This document shows positions 9,359-28,307 of a stretch of 37,937 nucleotides of DNA, piece after piece. The first letter of the stretch is position 1, and the number at the start of each line of letters is the position of its first letter. Source of the DNA: Endomicrobiia bacterium (GTDB lineage: Bacteria; Elusimicrobiota; Endomicrobiia; DTEH01). Location of the stretch: assembly GCA_025060535.1 (NCBI GenBank), contig JANXCA010000009.1:1-37937 (forward strand), in the 5' to 3' direction. A program made the position numbers and the translations under genes. A model generated the notes under the pieces. That model had not been told where the DNA came from. It did not search any database and saw nothing but the letters and a program-made list of their open reading frames with translations.

Positions 9359-10633
9359 TTACTCAATAAATTCAAATTCTACATCTGAAATTAAAACCTT
9401 ATCACCAACCTTAATTCCTTTTTCTTTCAATTTCTTTTCTATCTTTAATTTTTTAAGAATACTATGAAATCTCTCAATACTTTCTTTAGAAGAAAAATCT
9501 GTCATTTTTACGAGATCCTCAATTTTTTTCCCTTTAATTATAAACTTATTATCAATTTTTTCAATTTTGAAATCTTCTTTATATTCTATTATTTCTTGCT
9601 TTTTTTCCAAAATAGGCTCAACATCTTTTATGTCTTCTATGATTTGTACAATTTTTTTTACTAACTCATTAATACCCTCTTTTTTAAAAGCAGATATAGC
9701 TAAAACTGGATATTTCTTCAATTTTAGTTTAAACTTTTTAATTAAAGTATTCTTTGTTTCTAAAGATATCGTGTCTATTTTATTTAATACAACTATCATA
9801 GGTTTTTTAATAAGTTTTTCAGAGTAACTTTTAAGCTCATTTATTACTATTTGATAATTTTTATAGATTTTTTCAAAATCTCCGCAACTTATATCTATTA
9901 AATGCACCAACATCCTTGTTCTTTCAATGTGTCTTAAAAAATCAGTACCTAAACCTTTTCCTTTATGTGCATCTTCTATCAACCCAGGTATGTCTGCAAC
10001 TACTAACTTTTTATCATGATACACTAAAGTGCCCAAATTAGGAGACAGTGTTGTAAAGGGATAATCAGCAATTTTAGGTTTAGCTGCTGTGATCACAGAC
10101 AAAAGTGTAGATTTTCCAGCATTTGGTAAGCCTATTATACCTACATCTGCTATAAGTTTTAACTCTAAAATCAAAGTTACTTTTTCTGATGGTTGACCTA
10201 ACTCAGCTATCCTTGGAGCACGATTTGTGGATGACTTAAAATCAGCATTCCCTCTACCACCTCTTCCTCCTTTAGCAACTAAAACTACTTCATAGGGTTT
10301 TGTTAAATCTGCTAAAAAAATTTTATTTTTGTTTTCATCTAATTTATAAACAACTGTCCCACAAGGAACATCTATATATAAGTCTCTTCCATCTTTTCCA
10401 TACATATTTTTGCCTTTCCCATGTTCTCCATCCTCTGCTTTGAAATGAGGTCTTAAAGTAAAATCATAAAGAGTAGTAATGTTAGGATTTGCTCTTAAAT
10501 ACACATCACCACCTTTACCGCCTCTTCCACCATCCGGACCACCATATGGAACAAATTTCTCTCTTCTAAAACTTACACAACCATTTCCACCCTTCCCTGA
10601 TTCTACATATATTTTTACAACATCTACGAACAT
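9359..10633 (-). CDS. obg: GTPase Obg/CgtA
   Basis: FVDVVKIYVESGKGGNGCVSFRREKFVPYGGPDGGRGGKGGDVY Obg fold; G1 GLPNAGKSTLL, G3 DIPGLIEDAHKGKGLG, NKID; C-terminal OCT-like domain. Confidence 0.97.
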   Translation of the reverse strand: MFVDVVKIYVESGKGGNGCVSFRREKFVPYGGPDGGRGGKGGDVYLRANPNITTLYDFTLRPHFKAEDGEHGKGKNMYGKDGRDLYIDVPCGTVVYKLDENKNKIFLADLTKPYEVVLVAKGGRGGRGNADFKSSTNRAPRIAELGQPSEKVTLILELKLIADVGIIGLPNAGKSTLLSVITAAKPKIADYPFTTLSPNLGTLVYHDKKLVVADIPGLIEDAHKGKGLGTDFLRHIERTRMLVHLIDISCGDFEKIYKNYQIVINELKSYSEKLIKKPMIVVLNKIDTISLETKNTLIKKFKLKLKKYPVLAISAFKKEGINELVKKIVQIIEDIKDVEPILEKKQEIIEYKEDFKIEKIDNKFIIKGKKIEDLVKMTDFSSKESIERFHSILKKLKIEKKLKEKGIKVGDKVLISDVEFEFIE

Positions 10634-10894: not shown

Positions 10895-12022
10895 TTATTC
10901 AATTATGCTTCTGTTATAATTTATTAAATGAGAGTTTCCTTCTTCCGATAGCCATAAAGAATTTTTGTCTATAAAAAAGCTTGAGATAACTCTATTTGCT
11001 AAAAAATCTAATTTGTAAGAGTTCACTATTTCTTTGTAACCTTTAAGTTTATAAAGTGTATAATTTTTGTCTAAAATCCATATTTTATCTTTATACGAAG
11101 AAGCATATATTATATCCTTTACTAAATAAGGAAATTTTTCTATTACCTTATTTAAATCTTTGTCATATACAACAATTTGTTTGTCTTTATTATCAAAAAC
11201 TAAGATATTATTTTTATAAGCCACAATACAAATAGGTTCAGTTTGAGACAAGTTAACTACTTTAAGTAAAATATTTTTTCCTTTAACTATTACATATTTA
11301 TATATTTTTTTATTCCAAGCATCTAAAATATATAAATAATTTGAAACAAAACATATAGATGTAGGTACAATGTTGTCTCTGGAAAGCTTAAAAGATGTTA
11401 TCATAAATAAAAAATCACCTTTAATTTTATAAAACGCAACTTCTTGTGATGACCAACTACTTAATACAAGCTTATTATCTATAGCATTTATAGAAGATAT
11501 TGTCTCTAATGTAGTTTCATAAAACTTTTGTATTGGCAACTTTTCCCTTAAAACAAATTTCTTACATAATAACGCAAAAAACAAAATCAAAATGCTTACA
11601 CCAAAAAGTAAATTTATTTTTAAAGGAATCTTAAATCCTACTAATTTTTGAAATTGTGGTTTTATTTCTTTTTCTGGTTGTGGAAAAACTGTAATACTTT
11701 CTTCTTTTATTGTCTGTTGAGTATTAAATTTCTCTTTCGAAAGAATACTTATCTTTGTTAATAATTCATTTAAATTTCTCTGTGCTTCAAGATATCTTGG
11801 ATTAAGTCGAAGTGCTTTTTCAAACTCTATCCTTGCTTCTTCTAAAAAACCCTTCTTTGCTAAAGCTCTACCTAAAGAATTATGAACATCAGCATAGTCA
11901 GCACCATATTCTATTGCTTTTTTATACTCCTCAATAGCTATATCTAACTCACCTGTTGCTTCAAAAACCCTACCACGATAATAATGTCTCATCGCATCTA
12001 AAGAAACATCATACTTAGACAT
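10895..12022 (-). CDS. TPR protein with single TM helix and C-terminal propeller-like domain
   Basis: N-terminal TPR repeats (YYRGRVFEATGELDIAIEEYKKAIEYGADYADVHNSLGRALAKKGFLEEARIEFEKALRLNPRYLEAQRNL), TM INLLFGVSILILFFALL, then ~200 aa of repeated beta strands (YLYILDAWNKKIYKY, NILVFDNKDKQIVVYDKD, KIWILDKNYTLYKL). Confidence 0.75.
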   Translation of the reverse strand: MSKYDVSLDAMRHYYRGRVFEATGELDIAIEEYKKAIEYGADYADVHNSLGRALAKKGFLEEARIEFEKALRLNPRYLEAQRNLNELLTKISILSKEKFNTQQTIKEESITVFPQPEKEIKPQFQKLVGFKIPLKINLLFGVSILILFFALLCKKFVLREKLPIQKFYETTLETISSINAIDNKLVLSSWSSQEVAFYKIKGDFLFMITSFKLSRDNIVPTSICFVSNYLYILDAWNKKIYKYVIVKGKNILLKVVNLSQTEPICIVAYKNNILVFDNKDKQIVVYDKDLNKVIEKFPYLVKDIIYASSYKDKIWILDKNYTLYKLKGYKEIVNSYKLDFLANRVISSFFIDKNSLWLSEEGNSHLINYNRSIIE

Positions 12023-12037
12023 AAAATCTCCCTTTAG

Positions 12038-13216
12038 TTAGTCTACAACTGGAAATTCTAATGTTACAGCAGTACCTTTATTAAAAACTGAACTTATATC
12101 TATTTTGCCATTAAATAATTTTATATACCAAAAAGCTTTAAATAAACCTATACCAAAATGCCCTTGTTCAAACTTTGTCGTAAAAAATAACTCAAATACT
12201 TTTGGCAACAAATGCTCAGGTATTCCACAACCATTGTCCTCTATGACTATTTTTTTAGATAACTCAGAGGATAGTAATTTTATAATTATTTTATTATTTG
12301 TGAGTTGGAAAAACGACTCTAAAGAATTTTGTATAACTTCTGATACTATATCTGACAAAATTTGAAAATCTGCTTCAACCATAAGATCTTTATCAGAAGA
12401 AAAAACTTCCTGTGATACTTCAACATTTTTAAAAGATATCTCTTTTTCAAACTTATTTAAAACAAAAGAAATTATTGACTTTAAATCCACTTTTTGAAGA
12501 TTTATTGTAGAAGGAGGTTTTAAACGCTCAGAAGCAGTACGAATTATATCTCTTATTTTATATATCTCTTTCTGAACTACTTCTATTTTTCTATAGGAGG
12601 GATGCCCATCTATTTCATCTTTCACTAAATTAAATGCTTCATCTATTATACCAATAGGATTTCTAAAATATCTTAAACATTCATTCATAAAAGTAGTTAA
12701 TAACTTCATATGTGAAATTACATAATCTATTTTATCTTGTTTTGATGTTTCTTTTAAATATTTTTCTTCTTTTGAGATTGTTTCTATTTTTTCTTTTAAA
12801 TTTTTATTTTCTATCTCTAACTCTGTGATTTTTTTAAGAAGTTCTAAAAGTGACTTATCTTGTTGTAAAGATAAAGCTGACACTTTTGCTATTTGTTGTT
12901 CTTGAGTTGTTTTTAGTTGTTCATATTTTAGCATTATATCTTCTATCTCTTTTTGTAATTTCTGAATGATTTTTTCTTTTTCTTGTAAAATTGTCTCATA
13001 TCCTTTTTTAATCGTCTCAAGCAACATATTTTGGACTTCAGAAAAAAAAGATGGAGAAACCACTCCAGTTGAGTTTATCTGAGGTTTAATATCTAAAATC
13101 TGTGCAGAAAGATTTTCTTTTTTATTTTGTATCTCTTCAGTAAGCTTTTTTATTCTTTCACGAATTTTAATTATTCTTTCTTTTTCTTGTTGTGATAATT
13201 TTTCTAAATCTTTCAT
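12038..13216 (-). CDS. Cytoplasmic histidine-kinase-like HATPase protein with long N-terminal coiled coil
   Basis: C-terminal HATPase_c: VIQNSLESF (N box), IEDNGCGIPEHLLPKVFELFFTTK (G1/F), GHFGIGLFKAFWYIKLFNGKIDISSVFNKGTAVTLEFP (G2/G3); ~150 aa coiled coil; no TM or sensor domain seen. Confidence 0.82.
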   Translation of the reverse strand: MKDLEKLSQQEKERIIKIRERIKKLTEEIQNKKENLSAQILDIKPQINSTGVVSPSFFSEVQNMLLETIKKGYETILQEKEKIIQKLQKEIEDIMLKYEQLKTTQEQQIAKVSALSLQQDKSLLELLKKITELEIENKNLKEKIETISKEEKYLKETSKQDKIDYVISHMKLLTTFMNECLRYFRNPIGIIDEAFNLVKDEIDGHPSYRKIEVVQKEIYKIRDIIRTASERLKPPSTINLQKVDLKSIISFVLNKFEKEISFKNVEVSQEVFSSDKDLMVEADFQILSDIVSEVIQNSLESFFQLTNNKIIIKLLSSELSKKIVIEDNGCGIPEHLLPKVFELFFTTKFEQGHFGIGLFKAFWYIKLFNGKIDISSVFNKGTAVTLEFPVVD

Positions 13217-13221
13217 AAAAT

Positions 13222-14586
13222 TTACGGTATCTCAAGAACACTTCCTGGAACTAGTTGACCCCTTATTATTTTATCTTTGTTTGCTTCATAAATCCTTCTC
13301 CATTCTGAAGGATTTCCATAGTACTTCTCAGCTAACTTAGGTAAAGTATCACCTTCAACTACAGTGTGATATCTTTTTTTAGGTACAGTTGGTTGTAGAG
13401 GTGAAGTAGTTGTTGGCTGTTGAGGTTTTGGTTTTTCTTCAATTTTTCTTGATTCTGCTTCTTTAAGTTTCTTTTCTAACTCTTCTAATTTCTTAAGTAA
13501 AATTTCTTCGGTAGTTGAAAGCTGTTGAGGTTGTGGAGGTTGTAGAGTTGGTGTAAGTTCTTCTTCAGTAGGCATTGGTTGCTTAGAAGTAAAAGATTTA
13601 ATTTGTTCCTCTAATTGTTGTTTTTCTAAAAGAAGTTTGTAATATTCTTTTTTAGAAATCTTTTCTTCTTCTACCTCCACTGGTAAAAATTTGTAATTTA
13701 AAGAAAAACACTGAATACCACCGGTATCAACTTTACTTAAAGGAGACCACATATAAGCATAGTTAAAGCTAATCTGGGAAGTATAAAACCCAAAACCTAA
13801 AGAAATACTACTGTAGTCATTTTTACCATATCCTATTCCAAAAGAAGGAGTAAGTTTTATTTTTTTATTAAAAAATAAAAATTTATATTCAAAAGAAAAA
13901 GCAAAAATATAGTCCATTAAAGAAGAAAATTCGATTTTTAAATTAGGAAAAACTTTTATATTTTTATATTCATATTTATATCCAAAATTCAAACACATCG
14001 GTATATTTTCTTTAGTATATAAACCTACATTTGGCTGAAATATATTTTCTATCAATATACCTAAATAATTAAATTCATTAAACATATACAACCCACCTAG
14101 CGAAGCTGAAAAATAAGAAATTTCTGAAGTTTTTGAAAAAACAGGATTTTGTTTCATATAATCGTCTAAATTATACGACTCTCTATCATATGTGAATTTT
14201 ACTCCAAGTGCAACCTTAGGGATAAGTTCTTTTAGCTGTCTTCCATAAGAAAGTATTATTTTGTTTTTTATATACCAATCTATTATACCAAATTGATTAA
14301 AACCAAAACCTACTATACCATTTAACAATTTCTGGTTAGCACCTAAGCTATTATTAACAAATTTAGTTCCGTCTGTCAAGTTAGGATAAATCAGTCCATA
14401 TGTAAAAGTAATCTCTGGTACTTTAAGATTCCATAAACCTGCAGGATTTAAAAATATACAACTTACTGAATCATCTTTTGCAACTGTGTTATTTAATCTA
14501 AAATTTTCAGCAGAAAAATTCTCAACCGGATTATAACAATATCCTAAGCTAAATAAAAAGATAAAAATTATATTTAAATATTTCAT
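13222..14586 (-). CDS. Outer-membrane beta-barrel (PorV/FadL-like) protein with C-terminal LysM domain
   Basis: Signal-like N-terminus; AENFRLNNTVAKDDSVSCIFLNPAGLWNLKVPEITFTYG is PorV-like; alternating beta pattern; Pro/Gln-rich linker; C-terminal YHTVVEGDTLPKLAEKYYGNPSEWRRIYEANKDKIIRGQLVPGSVLEIP = LysM. Confidence 0.8.
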   Translation of the reverse strand: MKYLNIIFIFLFSLGYCYNPVENFSAENFRLNNTVAKDDSVSCIFLNPAGLWNLKVPEITFTYGLIYPNLTDGTKFVNNSLGANQKLLNGIVGFGFNQFGIIDWYIKNKIILSYGRQLKELIPKVALGVKFTYDRESYNLDDYMKQNPVFSKTSEISYFSASLGGLYMFNEFNYLGILIENIFQPNVGLYTKENIPMCLNFGYKYEYKNIKVFPNLKIEFSSLMDYIFAFSFEYKFLFFNKKIKLTPSFGIGYGKNDYSSISLGFGFYTSQISFNYAYMWSPLSKVDTGGIQCFSLNYKFLPVEVEEEKISKKEYYKLLLEKQQLEEQIKSFTSKQPMPTEEELTPTLQPPQPQQLSTTEEILLKKLEELEKKLKEAESRKIEEKPKPQQPTTTSPLQPTVPKKRYHTVVEGDTLPKLAEKYYGNPSEWRRIYEANKDKIIRGQLVPGSVLEIP

Positions 14587-17500
14587 TTTGCTACTATTAT
14601 TGTCCCTGTAAATGTTTTGTTACCTATTTTTATTTTATAAATATAAATTCCCTTCGGTACAACTTCTTTGTTATCATATCTTCCATCCCAAACAAGTTCT
14701 GTATCTTCCAATTTTAGTTTAGCCACATATCTTAAGTTTAAATCATAAACTTCTCCCTCTGGAGTAGATAAAGTAGGATTAAAAATCACAAAGTGGATTT
14801 TGTTATTTTTGGGAGAAAGAGGAGTAAAAATTTTCCTTGGGTAGATATTTACAATTGCAGGTTCTTCAGAAAAATGTATGACTTTTCTTATAACATATTC
14901 ACCTGTATTTTTTAATGTACATCTTAAAATATTTTTTTCTTTTTCATAATAGGTAGGAATAAGGACATATTCAACACCATTATTAAAAAACACAAGTGGT
15001 CTAAATTTATCATTATTTAAATAATCCTCCTGAAAATTATTCTTCAAAGAAATTTCTAAACTTATTGGTTGTGGTAATGTGTAAGTTATATTTTTATTAT
15101 TTTTTATAACCTCTAATTTATACCTCATAATTACATTTAACCTATCTATATCTTCTTCCTTAACAGACATTGTCGCAACTTGTATTTTATAACCTAAATC
15201 CAAAATTTCTTCATCTACAAATTTAGGAATTATCATTCTTATTTCCTCTAAAGGAATAATCCTGCTACCAGAGTTAAAAGAAGTTATCACATCAGAAGGA
15301 GCACTTTCTATATCTCCATATGTTATTGCCTTTATAAAGTAGTAGTAGGTAGTAAAATAAATATAATCTATAAACATTGTAATAGTTGAAGATACAAACT
15401 TATACACTGTATCTGTGCTCAGAAGAGTTTCATAATCCTGGCTACGATATATGTTGTAGCCCTTTATATCGTCTGCAGCTGATCCATCTGTATAGGTTTG
15501 AACTTTTTGCCAATATAAAATAAATCTGTATTGTTGTTGTTGGTAAGTTATTTTTTCTACTCTTGAAGGAATATTTATTATTCCTACAAAAAAACTTTCT
15601 TTATTAGCGTCACTACTTATTCCCTCCTCATCTATTGCAAGCACTTCATAATAATATGTTGTATTTTGTGTTAAATTTATCTGTGGTTGATAAGTAGTAG
15701 TTGAAACTTCTACATCAATTATTGATTCAGAAAAATCTTCTTTAGAAAAAACTTTCAATCTATATTTAATAATTTTAGTATTAGGCTCTTGATGAGAAGA
15801 AGGACTCCATTTAAAAACCGGTTTTCTTAAATTAGTTTCACCTTTAGGAGATAAAATTTCTACAGGATTTGGTCTAAAATAAGGCACATAAAACTGAAAA
15901 ACATTTGAATCTCTCCACAAACCTCTACTATCATAAGCAACTATTTTCCAATAATAAGTAGTATTCATCAAAAGTTTATATTCTATAGTATGTACAGATA
16001 CTGTAGAAGATATTATTGTGGTTGTAGTTATTTTAGATGGAAAATTACTTCTAGTAGATAATTTTAATTCATAATAAACTATATTATCGTCTTTATCCAC
16101 AGCTAATGACCAACAAAATTTTGGATTCCTTGTTAAAACTGTTCCTGAGGGATAATAAATCTCAAAAAATTCAGGAGGGTCATTTTGCAAGTCCACAAAA
16201 AAATAATTTATCTGTGAAGTTTTTTTGCCTATTTGGTTATAGGCTTCCACATACCAAAAGTATGTAGTGTTTTCTTTTAATGCTGAAGTAGAATAAGAAA
16301 TTACTTGAATTTCTTTATAATTTTTATATGGATCTAAAGAAAGGACAAAATAATTAGTTGTTTGTTTTTCAGCCTCACCAAGAAAGATTTTATAATTTAT
16401 TGGTTTCCACCATTCTGTTTTGTTTGCTGCAGTCCAAGTTAAATTTAAAGGTTGATGTTGAATACGAACAAATGTGAAAGTAGAACCAGGTGACAATAAA
16501 TAAAAATCGTCTGGCAAGTCATCTTGAAGATCTACTATAAATAAATAAGATGAAATACTTTTTGTATAATTCCCTTTACTGTCATATGCTTCTACCCACC
16601 AATAATATATAGCATTTTCTTTAAGCAAAGATAAATCTAAATTATAATTTAAAGTTGTACTTCCCAAAACTATAATATATGTAGAGTGCCCAACTACATA
16701 ACTATCAAAGGTAGAAATAACTATTCTATAATGATGAATATAATCTTTCGGATCGGATTCATAACTTGGTTGCCAACTTAAAAAAATATTTCTTTCTTTT
16801 ATTACACCAGATGTTATATTTACATAGAAACTTTTTGGCTCTTCTTCAATAGAATTTATCCAAAAAGAGCTAACAGTAGAACTAGAAACACCTCCATATT
16901 TATCATTCGCAACTACTTGCCAAAAATACTGAGTGTTTTCTTTAAAATCAAAAGAAACTTCTATTTCTATTGTACTATTTAACTGTTTACCTAAATTTGA
17001 AGCTATATCTTCATATTTTTCATACACAGAAAAATCTGACATACTAGAAATATATAGAGTATAAAAAACTATATCTTCATCCGGATCTCCTTTATTTTTA
17101 AATTTAAACTTTGGATTTGTTGTGTTTACAACTTCATCATTTATCGGATATTCTAATTCAAAATTTCTTGGTTCAAAATTTGTTGTTTGGAAATAAAAAG
17201 TAGAATACGGAGTTTGAAAATTGCCAAATCTATCATATGCTTTCACATACCAAAAATATGTTGTTCTTGGTTGAAGATCAAAATTTAAAACAAAACTTGT
17301 AGTTGAAGAATAAAAACTATATTGAAAAGAAAAATTAGCTCTACTACTTATCACTAACACATAACTTGAAATTATGGGGTCATAGTTGTCTGGATCATAC
17401 ACCTGTTCCCAGTAAAATGTAGGTCTGAAGGTTTTAATCCCAACTGCAAAAGGTGAATTTATAGAAACACCCGGAGATAAAAGATTAAATTTGTATGGCT

Positions 17501-20318
17501 TTTGATTTGATATTACAAAATATCCAGTTGAAAAAGCAACTCCATATGGTTTTACTAAATATGGTTGAGAAGTAGAAGGATTCAAAGAAAAATTCCACTC
17601 ATTTTCTCCCCAACAATGAATCTGCCAATAATATGTAACAGAAGGATACAGTTTAGAAAATGTAAACATTACTGTTGTAGAGGTAACTTGTGGGTTTTCT
17701 AAATATATGTTTAGTTTCCATAAAGCTAAAGTATACCACCCATCACAAGTTTGCGGTAGAAATGTAGAAATGTTTAAAAAATAATGTTTCACACTATCAA
17801 AAGGATCTGGATCCTTGGGCTTTGTCCATTCAAAATATATAGGTCCTTCAAGAGATATTGGATTTATTATACCAGTTGGTTTAACTATATTATAATCAAA
17901 AGGAGCTTGTGGTAAAAAATCAATACAGAAAGTTTTTGGTGACTGAGATAAAGAAGGTGAAAATGTTTCAGTAGAAGTCCATATCCAGTATAAATTCTGT
18001 GGAGCATCAAGTGCTCTTATTCTAAAAAAATATGTTGCGTTTTCTATAATTTTTAAATCATATCCTTCTTGGGTACCTTCTTCTATAATTTTTGTTATTG
18101 CAGTAGAAACAAAAAAATCCCATCTTTTAAACCAATCTTCATACTCAAAAGGAGGTGCATTTTGATTAGGATTTCCAACATATCTCCATGCATTGGCTTC
18201 GTTTTTTGGCTCACGCCAACTTGAGATAAAAACCGCATACTCATATACACCATCTTGAGGATCAGGATCAAAAGTAGGTTGCCAACATAAGATTATAGGT
18301 GTGGATTTAGCAATGAAAATTTTATCATTATTTATTACTTTTTCCATTAAAGGATAATATGTGGTTCCTTCTAATACTATTTTATAAAAAGTTGCACCTT
18401 TTAAAATGGTAGGTGTTCCTGTAGGAAAAAATACTTCAAAATCACAAATAGGTTCATCTTTTTGGTTAATCCAAAACCAACCCAACGGAGTCTGTGTAGA
18501 AAGTTGTGGAAAACCTAAAAAGCTGCCTGAGTCATATGTTACTACATACCAATATATCTTTTTATTTTCATAATCCAATAACTCATTAGAAGATGGCTGT
18601 GTATATGGTGTCATCAAAAAGTAAGAAGTTGTTAATAATCCTTCTTTTGGAATCTTAATATAGTTTTCAAAACTTTCTGATGTAGAAAGAAATATCTCAT
18701 AGCCTATAACATAGTCATAAGGATCCACATCATATGCATCCTTAAAATCAAAAGAAATCTGTCCTGTATTAGTATGCACTACAGTATTTATAGGAGAAAT
18801 TAAAGGATTTGTGTGGAATTTAGGAGAAGTATTTTTAAAATTTACTATAAATTTAAAAATAGCTGTTGTTGAAGAAGCACCTTCTGAATCATAAGTAGTA
18901 AGTGTCCAATAATATGTTGTGTCATCTAATAAATTCTCAACTATAACATATGTTTGAGTGGTAGATAAATTTATAACCGGATGGCCTAATATATTTGAAG
19001 TAATATAAGTTGAAATTTTTAAAGTATAAGAAGATATAAAATCTCCATAGTCACTATCATTGCTTGCATCACTTAATGAAATTCCAGCATGCCAGCCTGC
19101 TTCTGACCAGTCTATTTTTACTGTAGTTGAAGAAATTACTATTGAAGTTGTGTTCCTTACAGGATCATATACAAAGTGCTTTAGAGGTGCATAACAACTT
19201 GGCAATGAATTAAAAGGAACCACATAAGGAGAAGATGAAGAAATTAACGACCAGTTATTTCTTTCATCTTTTGTTTTTATTGAAAAATAATAAAAATTAT
19301 TATTTAACAAACCAGTTATAACTACACTTGTAGAAGCATTAGGAACAACATTAACATTTTCTATAAAAAATACTTCAGTAGCTTCTGACCAAAGTGACTC
19401 GTTATTTATTTGTTGTCTATGATATCTTATTTTATAACCGCCAGAATAACTTGATGAATTATATAAAAAACCATCTTCATAGGAATCTTCATAAGGCAAA
19501 ATCCAATTAAGTTTTATGTGTCTAAATCCTGCCGAAACCAAAATAGATGTAATCCTTCTTGGAGGAGAAATATCAGGCTGTGCTATAGTAGTTACTTTAT
19601 TTGAAATTTCTGAAATGTTTCCAAGTTCATCTTCTGCCCACATTCTTATATAATAAGTAACACCTCCATTTAAACCTGTAAGTGTATACTTTGCAGACCA
19701 GATATAGGAGGGATATCCCCAAGTAGATATTTTAACTTGTGCTGCTAAGGGTGACCAATTATTAAAATTTTCATCTTCTGTATATTGAATATAGAAATAA
19801 CCAGATAAAGCTCCTATTATAGTGCCATTTATATAATCATCACTTCCTTCAAACTCTAATTCAATTTTACCTTCATGTATTCCACCAGTCGCATCTTTAA
19901 TATTAATATATGGCTTCCATAAAGTAAACCAGCCCGTTGCTGTATTTGATAAAGATACACTTTCATCTGATGAAGAAATAAATACTACAAAATAAAAAGT
20001 TGTATATTTACTTAATGAATTATTTAAAACAAATTTATCCAAACCTGAAATTGTTACTAATTGTTGTTCTCCAGGATAAACAGGCCCTGTAGAAAGCACA
20101 ATTTGAGCTGTGGAGGTAGACCAAGATATCTCTGAGAATGTGCTATATTGAATATAATAGCGGCTTCCTTCTGGTAAAATATCAGCTCCAGGATATGTCC
20201 AGATTAATTTTATACTTCCTTCTGAAAGATCATTACTTCCTGAAATTGAAATTAAGTCAGAAATATTAAAAGAAGCAAAAAGTTGAGTTGTTAATAAGCA
20301 TAAAAGTAAAATAAACAT
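14583..20318 (-). CDS. Giant secreted FN3-repeat surface protein with FlgD-Ig/sorting-type C-terminal domain
   Basis: Signal peptide (MFILLLCLLTTQLFA); repeated TYYWxVxAYDxxG strand motif; C-terminus VYDLNLRYVAKLKLEDTELVWDGRYDNKEVVPKGIYIYKIKIGNKTFTGTIIVAK. Confidence 0.85.
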   Translation of the reverse strand: MFILLLCLLTTQLFASFNISDLISISGSNDLSEGSIKLIWTYPGADILPEGSRYYIQYSTFSEISWSTSTAQIVLSTGPVYPGEQQLVTISGLDKFVLNNSLSKYTTFYFVVFISSSDESVSLSNTATGWFTLWKPYINIKDATGGIHEGKIELEFEGSDDYINGTIIGALSGYFYIQYTEDENFNNWSPLAAQVKISTWGYPSYIWSAKYTLTGLNGGVTYYIRMWAEDELGNISEISNKVTTIAQPDISPPRRITSILVSAGFRHIKLNWILPYEDSYEDGFLYNSSSYSGGYKIRYHRQQINNESLWSEATEVFFIENVNVVPNASTSVVITGLLNNNFYYFSIKTKDERNNWSLISSSSPYVVPFNSLPSCYAPLKHFVYDPVRNTTSIVISSTTVKIDWSEAGWHAGISLSDASNDSDYGDFISSYTLKISTYITSNILGHPVINLSTTQTYVIVENLLDDTTYYWTLTTYDSEGASSTTAIFKFIVNFKNTSPKFHTNPLISPINTVVHTNTGQISFDFKDAYDVDPYDYVIGYEIFLSTSESFENYIKIPKEGLLTTSYFLMTPYTQPSSNELLDYENKKIYWYVVTYDSGSFLGFPQLSTQTPLGWFWINQKDEPICDFEVFFPTGTPTILKGATFYKIVLEGTTYYPLMEKVINNDKIFIAKSTPIILCWQPTFDPDPQDGVYEYAVFISSWREPKNEANAWRYVGNPNQNAPPFEYEDWFKRWDFFVSTAITKIIEEGTQEGYDLKIIENATYFFRIRALDAPQNLYWIWTSTETFSPSLSQSPKTFCIDFLPQAPFDYNIVKPTGIINPISLEGPIYFEWTKPKDPDPFDSVKHYFLNISTFLPQTCDGWYTLALWKLNIYLENPQVTSTTVMFTFSKLYPSVTYYWQIHCWGENEWNFSLNPSTSQPYLVKPYGVAFSTGYFVISNQKPYKFNLLSPGVSINSPFAVGIKTFRPTFYWEQVYDPDNYDPIISSYVLVISSRANFSFQYSFYSSTTSFVLNFDLQPRTTYFWYVKAYDRFGNFQTPYSTFYFQTTNFEPRNFELEYPINDEVVNTTNPKFKFKNKGDPDEDIVFYTLYISSMSDFSVYEKYEDIASNLGKQLNSTIEIEVSFDFKENTQYFWQVVANDKYGGVSSSTVSSFWINSIEEEPKSFYVNITSGVIKERNIFLSWQPSYESDPKDYIHHYRIVISTFDSYVVGHSTYIIVLGSTTLNYNLDLSLLKENAIYYWWVEAYDSKGNYTKSISSYLFIVDLQDDLPDDFYLLSPGSTFTFVRIQHQPLNLTWTAANKTEWWKPINYKIFLGEAEKQTTNYFVLSLDPYKNYKEIQVISYSTSALKENTTYFWYVEAYNQIGKKTSQINYFFVDLQNDPPEFFEIYYPSGTVLTRNPKFCWSLAVDKDDNIVYYELKLSTRSNFPSKITTTTIISSTVSVHTIEYKLLMNTTYYWKIVAYDSRGLWRDSNVFQFYVPYFRPNPVEILSPKGETNLRKPVFKWSPSSHQEPNTKIIKYRLKVFSKEDFSESIIDVEVSTTTYQPQINLTQNTTYYYEVLAIDEEGISSDANKESFFVGIINIPSRVEKITYQQQQYRFILYWQKVQTYTDGSAADDIKGYNIYRSQDYETLLSTDTVYKFVSSTITMFIDYIYFTTYYYFIKAITYGDIESAPSDVITSFNSGSRIIPLEEIRMIIPKFVDEEILDLGYKIQVATMSVKEEDIDRLNVIMRYKLEVIKNNKNITYTLPQPISLEISLKNNFQEDYLNNDKFRPLVFFNNGVEYVLIPTYYEKEKNILRCTLKNTGEYVIRKVIHFSEEPAIVNIYPRKIFTPLSPKNNKIHFVIFNPTLSTPEGEVYDLNLRYVAKLKLEDTELVWDGRYDNKEVVPKGIYIYKIKIGNKTFTGTIIVAK

Positions 20319-20327
20319 ATTCTTTAA

Positions 20328-20801
20328 TTAATATACTAACTTTTTAATTATAATTTCAACACAAATCTTAATTTCTTCCGCTACCTGTAGATATACACTC
20401 TCTGGCTGACCAATTGGATCAAATATCTCTGGCTGAGAAAAAAAACCAGCAAATTTTTTCAAAAGATAACATTTATCAAAGAATTCTTTAAAGTTTTTAT
20501 ATATAAAATCAAGTTGTTTATTTTCCATTACCAATACCAAATCAGAAATTTCTAAAAGTGGCTGACTTATTCTGGTAGGTATATGCTTTGAAAGATCTTT
20601 CTCTTTAATGTTATAGAGTTTAAAAAGTTTTTTTATACTTTCAGGTAAACAGAAATCTTCTTCAGCTATTATTCCACAAGAATAAACCTTTATACTATCT
20701 ATGTTATATTTAGCCAAAAGATGTAAAGTATATCCCTCGGCAAAAACACTTCTAAATACATTGCCGTTACACACATAAAGTATTGTTTTTGTCTGTTTCA
20801 T
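20328..20801 (-). CDS. Low-molecular-weight protein tyrosine phosphatase family protein (Wzb-like)
   Basis: P-loop CNGNVFRS (C-x5-R) near N-terminus and EIFDPIGQP general-acid DP motif. Confidence 0.85.
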   Translation of the reverse strand: MKQTKTILYVCNGNVFRSVFAEGYTLHLLAKYNIDSIKVYSCGIIAEEDFCLPESIKKLFKLYNIKEKDLSKHIPTRISQPLLEISDLVLVMENKQLDFIYKNFKEFFDKCYLLKKFAGFFSQPEIFDPIGQPESVYLQVAEEIKICVEIIIKKLVY

Positions 20802-22180: not shown

Positions 22181-23463
22181 TTTTTAGTAGAAAAAATATT
22201 AGTATAAAGACTTTCTAATAAAAAAATCATTCTTTCTATACTAAACTGTGGATAACCATCTATTATTTTGTTTACCCAAACTTTAGCATTACTTGACATT
22301 TCAGTCCTTAATTTTACATCCATCAACAGCCTAACTACTGCTTCGGCTAATTTTTTGGAATCTTGTGGTTCAACTAAAATACCTGTATGAAGGTCTACTA
22401 CAACTGAACTAATTCCTTGAACTTTTGTAGCAATCACTGGTTTTCCTAAAAGTTGTGCTAAAACTATAGTCTTACCCATACCTTCATTCAAAGATGGCTG
22501 AACATATATATCCATTATTGAAATTAACTCAACTACATTTTCTCTCATACCAGTGAATATAACTTTAATTTTTTTATCTTTTAATGTTTTTTCAAAAATT
22601 TTTATATTATTTTTTTGTCCATAATAAAAACTTTTAGATAAACTTACAACTTTAAAATGTTGTTCTGTAAGGAGTTTTTCTAATTTTTTTCTTTCAGAAC
22701 CGTCTCCCACAATAAGAAAAGAAAAAGAAGAATTTAAAAAATTACAAATAAAAGGTATCGCTTCTATCAAATATCTTACACCTTTAACAGGCTCAAGCCG
22801 TGCTACTGTGCCTATAATCATGTTTTCTTTTATGTTAAATTCTTCTTTTAGATTATTCAATTCGTGATATGTAATCTGTAGATTATAATCAACTCCTGAG
22901 GGTATCACAACCCATTGATTAATTTTGCCGATCCCATACATAAGAGATTCATTTTTCTCACCATCAGTTAAAGCAACAATTTTGTCAGTTATTTTTGCAG
23001 TAATTTTTTCAATCACTAGAAACATAAATGTAATAAGTTTATTATAATATCCGTAAAAAATATGACCATGAGGAGTATGAATTATTTTTATATTTCGGAA
23101 TTCAAGACTAAAAGTCCGCAACAAAAATGCTGCCCATCTACCTAAAATACCGCCTTTTGAAGTATGTGTATGGACTATATCTGGTTTTTCTTTTTTTATT
23201 ATATTTAAAATTCTCAAAAAAGCAACTAAATCTTTTATAAAAGAAATTTTTCTTTGCAGTTCTTCAATATAATAAGTTTTAAAATTTAAGGTAGAAATAT
23301 TAAAATCTAAACTTTTTGTTTTACCACCATATATTAATACTATCTCATAATCATACTTTACAGGTTCTTTCTTTAATGCAAAGTATTTACAACTAATCAA
23401 GACATTTTCAGAGGAACCACCTTTATCAAGACGTGTTATGATATGAATAATTTTAAGTTTCAT
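22177..23463 (-). CDS. Glycosyltransferase family 4
   Basis: IHIITRLDKGGSSENVL, DIVHTHTSKGGILGRWAA, IIGTVARLEPVKGVRYLIEAI, VQPSLNEGMGKTIVLAQLLGKPVIAT. Confidence 0.92.
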   Translation of the reverse strand: MKLKIIHIITRLDKGGSSENVLISCKYFALKKEPVKYDYEIVLIYGGKTKSLDFNISTLNFKTYYIEELQRKISFIKDLVAFLRILNIIKKEKPDIVHTHTSKGGILGRWAAFLLRTFSLEFRNIKIIHTPHGHIFYGYYNKLITFMFLVIEKITAKITDKIVALTDGEKNESLMYGIGKINQWVVIPSGVDYNLQITYHELNNLKEEFNIKENMIIGTVARLEPVKGVRYLIEAIPFICNFLNSSFSFLIVGDGSERKKLEKLLTEQHFKVVSLSKSFYYGQKNNIKIFEKTLKDKKIKVIFTGMRENVVELISIMDIYVQPSLNEGMGKTIVLAQLLGKPVIATKVQGISSVVVDLHTGILVEPQDSKKLAEAVVRLLMDVKLRTEMSSNAKVWVNKIIDGYPQFSIERMIFLLESLYTNIFSTKK

Positions 23464-24545
23464 TTTTTTAATAAAATTTCAACAACTTCTGAATCAGCTA
23501 AAAATCTCATAGGAGGGCCCCAAACACCAGCACCTGATGTAACTATTAATACTGAGTTATTTTTTTTATAAATACCATAGAAATATTTATAAAAAATTCT
23601 CACAAAGATATGAAAAGGGAAAATCTGCCCTCTATGAATATGTCCTGAGATCATTATTAAATCAAAATTTTTTGATATTTCCTCAAAATAAAGTGGTTGA
23701 TGTGAGATCAAAATATTTAATTTGTTTTTAATATAATGTTTTGATAAAATTTCCATTACTTCTTGTTTTGACAAATCTTCAGTAATAATATCACCCAGTC
23801 CTATAAAATTTATATCTCCTATACACAATGAATTATTTCTTAAAATCTTATAACCTAAACTACTAAAAATTTCTGAAGCTTTATTAATTCCGAAATAATA
23901 TTCGTGATTACCAAATACCACAATAGTAGGGATTTTATAAGAATGAATTTTCCTAACCATCTCATCATTAATTTTAAAACCATATTCTAATATATCACCT
24001 ACTAATACTAAAACATCAGGTTGAGAATTTTTTATTTTTTCATACAATTTTAAAAACCATAAATTTTTATGTCTACAACTTAAATGTGTATCTGAGATAA
24101 AAATTATTTTATAGTTTTTATTTAAATTATCAAACTTAAAAGTAATTCTATTAAAATTAGGCAACTTTATTCCTTCATAAGTAGCTTTAATAATATAAAT
24201 TAAAGATACACCTAAGAATAAACAAATAATTATTCTTCTATCAATTTTTTTAAACAAAAATAAAAAAATTTCTCCTATAAAGCACCAAAAAGACATTATC
24301 AAAACTAATCCTATCCAAAAAAACCCTAAAATAAAAATATATTCTAAAACTCCACAACTAAATCTTACACGTAAAAATAAACTCAAGATAGAAACTATAA
24401 ATAAACCCAAAAAAACTTTCCTAAAATAAATTATATTTTTTCTTACAAATGGAAAATCTGAAATAAACTTAAGAATAAACAAATGAGATAAAAAGAAAAA
24501 AAACAATAAACTCAAAAAAATCAAACCAAATGCAAAATACTTCAT
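23460..24545 (-). CDS. Membrane-anchored metallophosphoesterase (YkuE/YaeI-like)
   Basis: IIFISDTHLSCRHKN, VLVGDILEYG, VVFGNHEYYFG, LISHQPLYF, ISGHIHRGQ; preceded by several TM helices. Start placed at MKYFAFGL (ATGA overlap with upstream stop) rather than the ORF-track start at 24632. Confidence 0.88.
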   Translation of the reverse strand: MKYFAFGLIFLSLLFFFFLSHLFILKFISDFPFVRKNIIYFRKVFLGLFIVSILSLFLRVRFSCGVLEYIFILGFFWIGLVLIMSFWCFIGEIFLFLFKKIDRRIIICLFLGVSLIYIIKATYEGIKLPNFNRITFKFDNLNKNYKIIFISDTHLSCRHKNLWFLKLYEKIKNSQPDVLVLVGDILEYGFKINDEMVRKIHSYKIPTIVVFGNHEYYFGINKASEIFSSLGYKILRNNSLCIGDINFIGLGDIITEDLSKQEVMEILSKHYIKNKLNILISHQPLYFEEISKNFDLIMISGHIHRGQIFPFHIFVRIFYKYFYGIYKKNNSVLIVTSGAGVWGPPMRFLADSEVVEILLKK

Positions 24546-25375
24546 TTTTTTACAGAATATATAATAAATGAAGGAGATATTATAAATCCAGTAAAAAAAT
24601 ATACAATTTTTGATATTATAAAATATAAGCACTTAAAAATTGAAACAATTTCATTTAAAAATTTTAATTGTCTATATGGATCGCCTAAAGTTAAATAAAG
24701 ATACGCTTTATTATTTAAAATTCTAAATCCATTCTTTAATAAAAGCCATTTTAATGACCTAAATGTAAAACCAAAATTATGATATACAAAAGGAGATTTA
24801 ATAAACAATTTTACTATATTTATTAGTTTCTCTAAATAAATATGAAATAAAGCATTCTTTACCCTTATTATCAAAATACCATTTTCAGTTAAAATTTCAT
24901 TAATATATTTAATTGCTTTATTTATATCATTTATCTCATATAACACATCAATTAAAATAATTACATCAAAAAATTTTAAAGGAAATTTTATATGAAGAAA
25001 ATCACCTAAATAAATTTTATCTTCACCAATTAAAGTTTTTGCAGACTCTACAGACCTTTTTACTAATTCAACACCATATACATCATATCCTATATTTTGT
25101 AAATATTTTAAAAAATACCCACTTCCAAAACCTACTTCTAAGACTTTAATTTTTGTAGTTTTGTATCTTTTAATAAGAAATTTTTTTATTTTATAATAAA
25201 TACTACTTTTAGACATATCAATAATTCTTTGCATTTCAAAATATTTATCATAATATGACTCTATCTCTAAAGAAGATTTTCTTATTTTATTTTGATAAAA
25301 ACCACATTTTTTACAAATAAATAAGTTTTTATATTCTTTAATTTTATAAGAATTACAAATTATACAACTCTGCAT
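24542..25375 (-). CDS. Class I SAM-dependent methyltransferase with N-terminal zinc ribbon
   Basis: CIICNSYKIKEYKNLFICKKCGFYQ zinc ribbon; VLEVGFGSGYFLKYLQNIGYDVYGVEL motif I; FDVIILIDVLYEI. Confidence 0.88.
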   Translation of the reverse strand: MQSCIICNSYKIKEYKNLFICKKCGFYQNKIRKSSLEIESYYDKYFEMQRIIDMSKSSIYYKIKKFLIKRYKTTKIKVLEVGFGSGYFLKYLQNIGYDVYGVELVKRSVESAKTLIGEDKIYLGDFLHIKFPLKFFDVIILIDVLYEINDINKAIKYINEILTENGILIIRVKNALFHIYLEKLINIVKLFIKSPFVYHNFGFTFRSLKWLLLKNGFRILNNKAYLYLTLGDPYRQLKFLNEIVSIFKCLYFIISKIVYFFTGFIISPSFIIYSVKK

Positions 25376-25379
25376 AACT

Positions 25380-28307
25380 TTAGACCAAATTTTTCAGTAT
25401 ATTTAAAACTTCTTTTGGTGTAATTTCTTTAAGACATTTTAAGTTTTTACAGTTATACTTATAACATGGTCTTTTACATTTTATATTTTCTTTCCTTAAA
25501 ATATAAATTTTATCTTTTTCTACATAAGGAGTATATCTGACAACATCACCAGGTCCAAATATACATATCACTTTTTTATTCAAAGCAGCTGCAAGATGCA
25601 TAAGGCCAGTATCATTTGACACAATTATATCCATTTTTTCCATAAGAGCAGCTAATTTCTCAAATTTATCAGTTATGTTATTGGTTATAATTACAAAATC
25701 CAAATCTGAAAAAGTTTTATGCATCAATTTATCTTCTTCTTTACTACCAAAGATAAAAATTGAAGCATATGAATATATATTTTTAATAAGAAATGCTAAA
25801 TCTCTCCAATACTCTAATGGCCATCTCCTTGAAGGCCTAAACGCTCCTGGACAAAATCCAACTAAAATCTTAGATCCCTTTATATTGTTTCTTATAAATT
25901 CTTCACTCCATTGCTTTGCTTCGATTCTTATTGGATAAAAAATATAATCTGGTTTTCCCTTTATGCCTAAAGGTTCTAGTAACTTATAAGTAATTTCTAC
26001 CTCATTAGTTGCTGGAAAATCTTCTTCATCATAAAAGAAATTAAAAATTCTTCGTGAAAATTTTTTACCATACCCTATAAAAAAATCTGAATTTATAAAA
26101 GTTTTTATTATTAAAATTTTAAGCATACCTAATAAACTATTTACTTTTCTTAAATTTATAACAAAATCAAATTTTATATTTTTTAATCCAATTAATAACT
26201 TAATCAAACTTTTAATTTTTTTAAATTTAAACATCTTATAATGAATCGGCAAAGTAATTATTTCTGAAAAATAAGGAATTGTCTGTGCTATTTCTTGTGA
26301 ACGCGATATTGTAAGTAAAAAAAACTTAGAATTGGAATATCTATCATAAAGAGCTTTAATTATTGGCATCATCATTATTATATCTCCGAGACCACCTAAA
26401 TTTATTAATAAAATTTTCATTTCATTTTTTAATTCAATAGCTCTTTTTAAGTTCAAAGATAATAATTTCAAAAACTTTTCTCGCCACATCTCCCACACAA
26501 GAATAGTAAATAAAAGATCAGAATAGTTTTTGGTTTTATTCAGATGCTGCTTAATTATTTTTTGTAGATAATTATAATTTATTAGGCCCTCACTATTTAT
26601 AGTATGTGGATTTAAGTAATCGAACATTAATTCTTTAATCTCCTCTATCAACCACCGTCCTAAAGGAATTTGAAAACCTTGCTTTTTTTGTTTTACGATA
26701 CTTAAAGGTAAACCTTCCATTTCTAAAATCTTTCTTAAAAAATACTTTAAAGTTAATTTTTTTGTTTTACTTTTTAGTGATACCTTGCTTAAAAATTCTA
26801 CTAAACGAACATCTAAAAAAGGAACTCTTAACTCTAAAGAATTAGCCATTGAGGCACGATCTGCTAAAAACAATAAATTATCTTTAAGATATGTAGATAT
26901 ATCAAAAAAATAAATATCTTCATAAGTATTTATTGACGGAAGGAAATCCGTATCAAATTTCTTAAGTTCCTTTTCCAAAAATAACTCATCTTTGTCATTT
27001 AAATCTAAAGAAGAAACCCACAAGATGTATTTTTCTTTTAAATTCTCTGAAATATATAAAAATCTTTTTATCCAGTTGATTAAATCCCTTTTTTGATAAG
27101 TAATCTTAAAAATTTTAGAAAACTCAAAAAGACATCTTTGAAAAAATAACGGTGTATGTAAATAGATTTGTGCAAAATATGCACCAATATATCGCGGATA
27201 GCCACCAAATAACTCATCCCCTCCTATACCAGAAAGAGCAACAGTTATTTTATTTTTGGCAAACTGACTAATAAGATAAGTAGGTATTATTGAGGAATCT
27301 CCAAATGGTTCTCCTGATTTTTCTAATATATCTAATAAAACTTTCTCAATTTGCGGTGTTAAAATTTTAACATTGTGGTTAGTATTAAAAAACTCTGAAA
27401 TAATTTTGGCTTTTTTTAGTTCATTAAAAGTAATATCTTCCTCTCCGAAACCAACACTAAATGTCTCTATTTTACCAATATTAAACTTTTTCATAAATGC
27501 TACTATCGCAGAAGAATCTAATCCACCAGAAAGAAATACTCCTAAAGGGACATCTGAAACTAATTGTTCTTTTATAGAAAGATAAAACAATTCATAAATT
27601 TTTTCTATAATAAACTCTTCCTTTAAGTTTTCCTTTTGACTAGAAGTATTTAACTCCCAGTATTTGCGAATATAAAAATTGTTATTTCTCCAAACAAGTA
27701 AACTTGCAGCTGGAAGTTTTTTGATCTGTTTTATGATAGTGTATGGTTCAGGAGCGTAAAGCAAAGAAAAAAAATAAGATAAGGCATCTTTATCTATTTC
27801 AAAATTTATGCCAGGTACCAAATATAGTGCTGATATTTCAGAGCTAAAAAATATAGTTTTATCTTTAATAATATAATGTAACGGTTTTATTCCAAAATGA
27901 TCCCTAACTAAGACAAGCGTCTTAGTCTTTTTATCCCATAATGCAATCGCAAACATCCCACGAAGATATTTTACAAAATCAAGACCATAATCTTCATACA
28001 AATGAACTATGACTTCTACATCAGACTTACTTTTAAATATATGTCCTTTTGACTCAAGAGTGTTTCTTAGTTCTCTAAAATTATATATCTCTCCGTTACA
28101 TACAACTACCACATTACCATCTTCACTCATAATAGGTTGACTTCCTGTTAAAAGATCAATAATTTTAAGTCTTCTAATACCTAAAGATACTAAACTATCT
28201 TCAGTATAAATTCCTTCCTCATCAGGTCCACGATGTATTAATTTGTCTAACATTTTTCTAAGGAGTTCTTCATCTTTATAATTTACAAAACCACATATAC
28301 CACACAT
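25380..28307 (-). CDS. asnB: Fused asparagine synthase (glutamine-hydrolysing)-like amidotransferase and C-terminal GT9 heptosyltransferase-like domain
   Basis: N-terminal nucleophile MCGICGF, GVFLSGGLDSSAIVAF PP-loop, ALSGIGGDELFGGYPRY; from ~26420 MKILLINLGGLGDIIMMMPIIKALYDRYSNSKFFLLTI...FCPGAFRPSRRWPLEYW...IVSNDTGLMHLAAALNKKVICIFGPGD = GT9. No stop between them. Confidence 0.88.
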   Translation of the reverse strand: MCGICGFVNYKDEELLRKMLDKLIHRGPDEEGIYTEDSLVSLGIRRLKIIDLLTGSQPIMSEDGNVVVVCNGEIYNFRELRNTLESKGHIFKSKSDVEVIVHLYEDYGLDFVKYLRGMFAIALWDKKTKTLVLVRDHFGIKPLHYIIKDKTIFFSSEISALYLVPGINFEIDKDALSYFFSLLYAPEPYTIIKQIKKLPAASLLVWRNNNFYIRKYWELNTSSQKENLKEEFIIEKIYELFYLSIKEQLVSDVPLGVFLSGGLDSSAIVAFMKKFNIGKIETFSVGFGEEDITFNELKKAKIISEFFNTNHNVKILTPQIEKVLLDILEKSGEPFGDSSIIPTYLISQFAKNKITVALSGIGGDELFGGYPRYIGAYFAQIYLHTPLFFQRCLFEFSKIFKITYQKRDLINWIKRFLYISENLKEKYILWVSSLDLNDKDELFLEKELKKFDTDFLPSINTYEDIYFFDISTYLKDNLLFLADRASMANSLELRVPFLDVRLVEFLSKVSLKSKTKKLTLKYFLRKILEMEGLPLSIVKQKKQGFQIPLGRWLIEEIKELMFDYLNPHTINSEGLINYNYLQKIIKQHLNKTKNYSDLLFTILVWEMWREKFLKLLSLNLKRAIELKNEMKILLINLGGLGDIIMMMPIIKALYDRYSNSKFFLLTISRSQEIAQTIPYFSEIITLPIHYKMFKFKKIKSLIKLLIGLKNIKFDFVINLRKVNSLLGMLKILIIKTFINSDFFIGYGKKFSRRIFNFFYDEEDFPATNEVEITYKLLEPLGIKGKPDYIFYPIRIEAKQWSEEFIRNNIKGSKILVGFCPGAFRPSRRWPLEYWRDLAFLIKNIYSYASIFIFGSKEEDKLMHKTFSDLDFVIITNNITDKFEKLAALMEKMDIIVSNDTGLMHLAAALNKKVICIFGPGDVVRYTPYVEKDKIYILRKENIKCKRPCYKYNCKNLKCLKEITPKEVLNILKNLV

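Follow-up and report, generated by a model that had tools for sequence, protein, structure and literature searches.

A conserved four-gene cassette of Elusimicrobiota combining a giant surface fibre, a barrel-LysM protein and a histidine-kinase relative with arginine at the phospho-acceptor position

The locus and its gene products

Four co-directional ORFs lie on the minus strand within positions 10895-20318 of the window, the whole 37,937-nt stretch of DNA analysed here, which comes from a draft genome of 1.9 Mb (88% complete) of an Endomicrobiia bacterium, a member of the little-studied phylum Elusimicrobiota. In order of reading they encode a fibre, a barrel-LysM protein, a HATPase and a TPR-TM-propeller protein. 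The first-pass annotation of the window had described these four genes with this order, this direction and tight junctions, and the ORF coordinates and junction sequence agreed with it: the fibre and barrel genes overlap by 4 nt (aaATGAaa), and gaps of 5 nt and 15 nt separate the barrel gene from that of the HATPase and the latter from the TPR-TM-propeller gene, respectively. The features of the locus are as follows.

20328..20801, minus strand: LMW protein-tyrosine-phosphatase-like protein (LMWPc, 47.7 bits)
14583..20318, minus strand: giant FN3/Ig-like surface fibre, 1911 aa, with an N-terminal signal-peptide-like segment (Pfam fn3, Ig_Rha78A_N)
14586..14840, minus strand: C-terminal ~85 aa of the fibre, resembling a T9SS type B (CHU_C) sorting domain (CHU_C and TIGR04183, below cut-off)
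13222..14586, minus strand: putative outer-membrane shuttle/anchor barrel with LysM, 454 aa (domain matches, AlphaFold2 model, Foldseek)
13690..14415, minus strand: predicted 14-stranded FadL/PorV-like beta-barrel, aa 58-299 (AlphaFold2 model, Foldseek)
13447..13653, minus strand: predicted coiled-coil linker of two helices, aa 312-380, periplasmic by topology (AlphaFold2 model)
13225..13374, minus strand: C-terminal LysM, aa 405-454, presumed to bind peptidoglycan (PF01476, 23.1 bits, above cut-off)
12038..13216, minus strand: soluble coiled-coil / degenerate DHp / HATPase protein, 392 aa (HATPase_c, 56 bits)
12671..12673, minus strand: codon of Arg182 at the phospho-acceptor position, in the H-box LRYFRNP (aligned with AHRVRNYLG of His+ homologues)
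12047..12361, minus strand: GHKL ATPase domain with N, G1, F and G2 boxes kept (Pfam, alignments)
10895..12022, minus strand: TPR-TM-propeller protein, 375 aa (TPR match, AlphaFold2 model, profile homology)
11699..12001, minus strand: TPR repeats, aa 8-108, presumably cytoplasmic (TPR match, AlphaFold2 model)
11552..11617, minus strand: single transmembrane helix, aa 136-157 (AlphaFold2 helix)
10913..11530, minus strand: predicted five-bladed beta-propeller, aa 165-370, presumably periplasmic (20 strands, pLDDT ~90)

The LMW tyrosine-phosphatase-like gene lies 9 nt upstream of the fibre gene, occupies the same place in the congeners G001 and G002, and is replaced by other genes in G003 and G004; for this genus it may be the first gene of the operon and a fifth member of the cassette. 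On the other side, the Obg gene (9359-10633) is the next one downstream on the same strand, after a gap of 261 nt. In a promoter scan, sites were no commoner than in shuffled sequence, so that the limits of the operon cannot be fixed by promoters. Further along the window, an exopolysaccharide/LPS-type cluster at 22-38 kb contains a single ORF (25380-28307) fusing an asparagine synthase (amidotransferase) to a family-9 (heptosyltransferase-type) glycosyltransferase. A metallophosphatase ORF with a GTG start (23460-25375) overlaps a methyltransferase ORF by 91 nt, and its real start is probably an internal ATG.

Orthologues of the fibre, of 1901-1958 aa, occupy the same place in G001, G002, G003 and G004. 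The fibre N-terminus is hydrophobic (MFILLLCLLTTQLFAS), as read from the sequence itself and not by a predictor. At the other end, the window fibre scored 18.8 bits against CHU_C (cut-off 27), 20.3 bits against TIGR04131 (cut-off 35) and 21.6 bits, also below cut-off, against the type A sorting domain TIGR04183; the CHU_C gathering score was passed by the orthologues L081, L116, L121 and L130, at 30-43 bits. Judged by these profiles, the fibre ends in a stretch similar to a type B (CHU_C) secretion signal of the T9SS. The fibre gene adjoins that of its PorP/SprF-like barrel, by overlap in the window and as fibre-barrel pairs across the phylum.

AlphaFold2 modelled the barrel protein (pLDDT 75) as a 14-strand barrel, a coiled coil and a LysM domain, and Foldseek matched this model to FadL (9e-10) and to the PorV-RemA-CTD complex (8gl6_F, 2.8e-9), the latter having the highest query-normalised TM among the matches listed. 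With NF033709 (PorV/PorQ, cut-off 90 bits) the window protein scored 18.5 bits and the best orthologue 68 bits, neither reaching the cut-off; PF11751 (PorP_SprF, cut-off 22.3 bits) gave 29.3 bits, above cut-off, in the orthologous barrel of L116 and no match in the window barrel at E<=0.1. On its model, the barrel is a 14-stranded fold of the FadL/PorV-like kind.

The model of the TPR-TM-propeller protein (pLDDT 83) comprises a TPR part, in which the motif HYYRGRV is invariant among homologues, a TM helix and a 5-bladed propeller; in the homologues, a single hydrophobic segment lies at the position of this helix. Counted from the strand list, the 20 strands make five blades, with the N-terminal strand closing the propeller, and Foldseek related this domain to glutaminyl cyclases (TMt 0.63-0.70) and also to BamB. 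Because the protein has a single TM segment and a cytoplasmic end made of TPRs or, in relatives, of a receiver, the propeller should lie in the periplasm.

No match to HisKA was found by Pfam in the window HATPase, whose orthologues in family f1 share 44-59% identity with it. The description of this protein as lacking the histidine proved accurate, and Arg182 rules out an ordinary histidine kinase. Each of the 13 Arg-type kinases, which belong to two class-level groups, retains the N, G1 and G2 boxes and hence, probably, ATP binding.

Recurrence of the cassette and its two-component relatives

With the HATPase and the barrel as queries, 80 loci were fetched (L113 being a short contig), and the order fibre, barrel-LysM, HATPase, TPR-TM-propeller was kept in 11 Elusimicrobiota loci: in the same class, the window, G001, G002, G003, G005 and G015, whose fibre gene is truncated by the contig start, and in a second class-level group L114, L115, L116, L117 and L118. 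Twelve of the 14 TPR-propeller genes had, at most five genes away, both a gene for a barrel-LysM protein and the C-terminal domain of a fibre. For the REC-propeller genes, a barrel-LysM gene lay within the same distance in 21/32 phylum-wide, several others being at contig ends. The four genes are a real module, whose order recurs beyond chance. Thus the grouping proposed in the first-pass annotation stands on conserved synteny, the co-occurrence of the four genes extending over two class-level groups and the HATPase/TPR pair being found mostly with the barrel/fibre pair.

There were exceptions. The module of G004 is split over two contigs, and in G011 (L083) the HATPase and TPR-propeller genes have no adjoining fibre or barrel gene. 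In the rearranged locus L112 of G004, the TPR-propeller gene lies beside a second fibre/barrel pair, and a DUF559 (restriction-endonuclease-like) gene (L112:10344-10817) takes the place of the HATPase gene, between those of the barrel and the TPR-propeller. L083, as a second pair without the first beside it, and L112 could be taken to mean that fibre plus barrel and HATPase plus TPR protein are two separate functional pairs co-transcribed by coincidence. We consider this very improbable, since the barrel-LysM gene stays close to most propeller genes of both types throughout the phylum, a proximity that is not restricted to close relatives.

A scan of named genomes found close relatives of the TPR-propeller family only in Endomicrobia/Elusimicrobia MAGs. 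Among 198 genomes of the phylum of the Bacteroidota control, the propeller search gave three weak matches, which had no REC or TPR match and two of which start like secreted proteins; the cassette was not found in this sample. Searching plasmids with the HATPase yielded partial matches only, at <60% identity, as would be expected for generic kinases. Downstream of the module of G001, L065:13541-16441 encodes a PilB/GspE-type ATPase (T2SSE + MshEN) and a GAF-HD protein, and similar neighbours also lie near the G003 module.

Other families of the phylum have these fibre and barrel-LysM genes too, and there the genes that come next encode a soluble coiled-coil histidine kinase and a REC-TM-propeller protein, composed of a receiver domain, one TM segment and the same propeller. 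In the window the receiver (DD, D57, K) is absent and TPRs are found in its stead, and the TM+propeller part is homologous, the TPR and REC types aligning over 229 columns (hhalign 99.8%, E 1.3e-29). The window cassette appears to be one version of a cassette found throughout the phylum, whose barrel/fibre pair is otherwise accompanied by a genuine kinase with a REC-TM-propeller response regulator. In a third form, the kinase is reduced to a remnant that lacks the ATPase domain, and the receiver-like stretch has no catalytic residues (for example L067 and L081); the two are sometimes fused in a single protein of 683-694 aa (L081, L148, L149, L150 and L169). Two cassette forms occur in tandem in G003. 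At L133:11585-19999, L136:11206-19005 and L143:7263-14051, the cassette's His+ kinase is contained within a giant ORF of 2262-2804 aa.

To count how the two partners covary, the nearest co-directional kinase of each propeller protein was aligned. Beside an intact receiver, 25 of 26 scorable kinases had the phospho-His, the remaining one having Asn (L157) and L125 not being scored, and all 13 kinases beside a TPR-propeller had Arg at this position. Degenerate receivers had one neighbouring kinase with Asp (L155) and two without an H-box in the alignment (L160 and L171). This coupling of kinase and receiver had a Fisher p of 3e-9 with the unscored case counted against it, a value obtained from samples that are not independent and that amount to 1-2 independent contrasts. 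In the kinase tree a single, weakly supported branch (59/79) sets the 13 Arg proteins apart. L155, L160 and L171 group in a clade of their own with support of 97/96, subject to a long-branch warning, and two or more lineages have thus probably lost His separately; the propeller tree does not resolve the three TPR clades. The trees are unrooted, and to speak of "loss" is to assume that a phospho-His is, in general, rarely gained.

Sequence comparison makes the HATPase and the TPR-propeller protein, as a pair, homologues of a cytoplasmic histidine kinase and a REC-TM-propeller response regulator, whose position they occupy, and the loss of phospho-His and receiver appears coordinated. The window switch would either descend from or stand in for a two-component pair, with its phosphate-relay parts missing. 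These losses also fit a purely structural anchor, that is, a PorE-like static tether to the peptidoglycan and the inner membrane, in which the HATPase is vestigial or an assembly scaffold. L067 and L081, with a coiled-coil remnant and a pseudo-REC and no ATPase domain, point the same way, and static anchoring has been proposed as the role of PorE-linked type B proteins (PMC9143113, PMC12618676). However, the ATP-binding boxes conserved in every Arg-type HATPase argue against a vestigial protein, and we regard this explanation as unlikely.

The SprA-like protein and a proposed mode of action

TIGR04189 (SprA) had matches in 45/60 relatives, the SprA-like protein of this genome scoring 73 bits where the equivalog cut-off is 200. 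When a single SprA-like protein was compared with the PDB by phmmer there was no match; a profile of ten Elusimicrobiota SprA-like proteins was needed, and in the whole PDB it retrieved SprA only (E 4e-24, four stretches). This profile found proteins, mostly full length and single copy, in 166/199 Elusimicrobiota genomes and in 134/142 good ones, and the listed genomes without it, many of them small, all belong to one family (f3). The SprA-like proteins have 1733-1850 aa; L174:6004-11205 encodes a SprA/Sov-like outer-membrane translocon in single copy. Models of GldL and GldM (PorL/PorM) matched in none of 7 Elusimicrobiota genomes and were positive in the Muribaculaceae control genome. Canonical T9SS is thereby ruled out as a label, and we refer to a SprA-type translocon instead.

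The interpretation that we prefer, with a probability of roughly 0.55, is a T9SS-like surface-adhesin cassette with a peptidoglycan-binding anchor and a trans-envelope switch free of phosphorelay. By homology, the FN3 fibre would cross the outer membrane via the SprA-type translocon, and its C-terminal domain would be held on the adjoining, dedicated PorV/SprF-like barrel. The LysM of the latter would fix it to the peptidoglycan, one chain doing the job of the Bacteroidota PorP and PorE. The predicted topology suggests that the periplasmic propeller docks on the barrel/LysM side and that the cytoplasmic TPRs bind the soluble HATPase; this protein may then act as an ATP-gated binding switch, not as a phosphodonor, linked via TPRs and propeller to the anchored fibre. 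Function and direction of signalling are what we infer here. Inside-out control, of fibre presentation or of anchoring, is favoured over contact sensing because in the receiver-type homologues the domain that can be phosphorylated lies upstream of the membrane, and a DNA-binding output is lacking; static anchoring or inside-out control is at least as likely as contact sensing.

An outside-in contact sensor, one of the readings suggested by the first-pass annotation, would employ the same parts and topology, fibre tension or a ligand acting through barrel, LysM and propeller on the TPRs, which would gate the HATPase and hence cytoplasmic targets. The signal in such assemblies can run either way, and the T2SSE/PilB-type ATPase and GAF-HD genes downstream of the G001 cassette are possible targets. 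Against it, the receiver of the REC-type relatives is fused to the membrane propeller, with neither a DNA-binding nor an enzymatic output recognised, so that nothing is seen that would carry a signal from outside to inside. Moreover, none of the kinases checked as examples is itself predicted to have a membrane segment. A contact sensor seems improbable to us.

As for the earlier interpretation as a whole, its grouping of the genes, the barrel as partner of the fibre and the ATPase as cytoplasmic component were retained, on conserved synteny and on the analogy with type B CTD/SprF pairs; it had not recognised the SprA-type translocon, the two-component homology of the HATPase/TPR pair or the T9SS-like character of the fibre and its barrel. 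That the module is undescribed holds within the literature searched, where we found no description of Elusimicrobiota with a T9SS, a LysM/response regulator or FN3 surface proteins, and where a recent pseudo-receiver review mentions neither transmembrane nor propeller. Negative results from this literature and from the genome samples mark the limits of the search and are not proof of absence.

More tentatively, Elusimicrobiota might possess a phylum-wide trans-envelope control in which a two-component-type signal in the cytoplasm is read, without DNA binding, by a membrane-spanning response regulator whose periplasmic propeller acts on a SprA-exported, peptidoglycan-anchored adhesin of the outer membrane, the lineage of the window having been converted to a phosphorelay-free Arg-HATPase with TPRs. 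If this is true, SprA-type export reaches a phylum outside the groups to which the cited literature restricts the T9SS, given as Bacteroidetes in 2016 (PMC4793230) and as Fibrobacteres-Bacteroidetes-Chlorobi in 2024 (PMC11205867). There would also be response regulators with the output domain across the inner membrane, so that phosphorylation acts directly on the envelope. Furthermore, REC with His, degenerate REC with a lost kinase, and TPR with Arg would form a natural series that strips the phosphorelay chemistry and keeps the physical link, making it possible to ask how much of two-component signalling is chemistry and how much is binding.

Comparison with known systems

Among known arrangements, the Bacteroidota operon that encodes a type B substrate, a SprF/PorP shuttle and PorE comes closest. 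The precedent is the complex of a type B CTD protein with PorP and PorE (PMC9143113), and five F. johnsoniae operons combine a PorE homologue, a type B substrate and a SprF-like shuttle (PMC12618676). As in PorE-PorP-PG1035 and SprF-SprB, the cassette comprises a putative surface protein with a CTD that resembles CHU_C, a neighbouring cognate 14-strand FadL-type barrel, a presumed peptidoglycan-binding function and a partner with TPRs and a beta-propeller. In contrast to PorE systems, its peptidoglycan binding would reside in a LysM on the barrel itself, its TPR/propeller protein spans the membrane once and lacks a lipoprotein signal, a cytoplasmic kinase-like ATPase is added, and canonical GldL/GldM were not detected. 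The TPR-TM-propeller protein was rejected as a PorE orthologue: the OmpA domain and the hydrophobic N-terminus are absent, and an internal TM is present instead. The Elusimicrobiota SprA-like protein resembles SprA/Sov in the four matching stretches and differs from it in being ~500-650 residues shorter and in its GldL/GldM partners, which were not found.

Regarding the switch, DivL, a Caulobacter pseudokinase in which the phospho-acceptor His is replaced (Tyr550), has a partner-binding role and binds DivK~P (PMC4211667). The window HATPase is likewise a histidine-kinase relative with this His replaced; whereas the partner of DivL is a phosphorylated receiver, the neighbour of the HATPase is the TPR-TM-propeller protein, in a cassette without a receiver. 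With two-component systems in general the cassette shares a DHp-like segment and a GHKL ATPase fold, and its homologues in the phylum are a His+ kinase and an intact receiver. It departs from them in that the phospho-His is Arg and TPRs replace the receiver in the window, and in that the output of its relatives is a TM segment with a propeller, not a DNA-binding domain or an enzyme.
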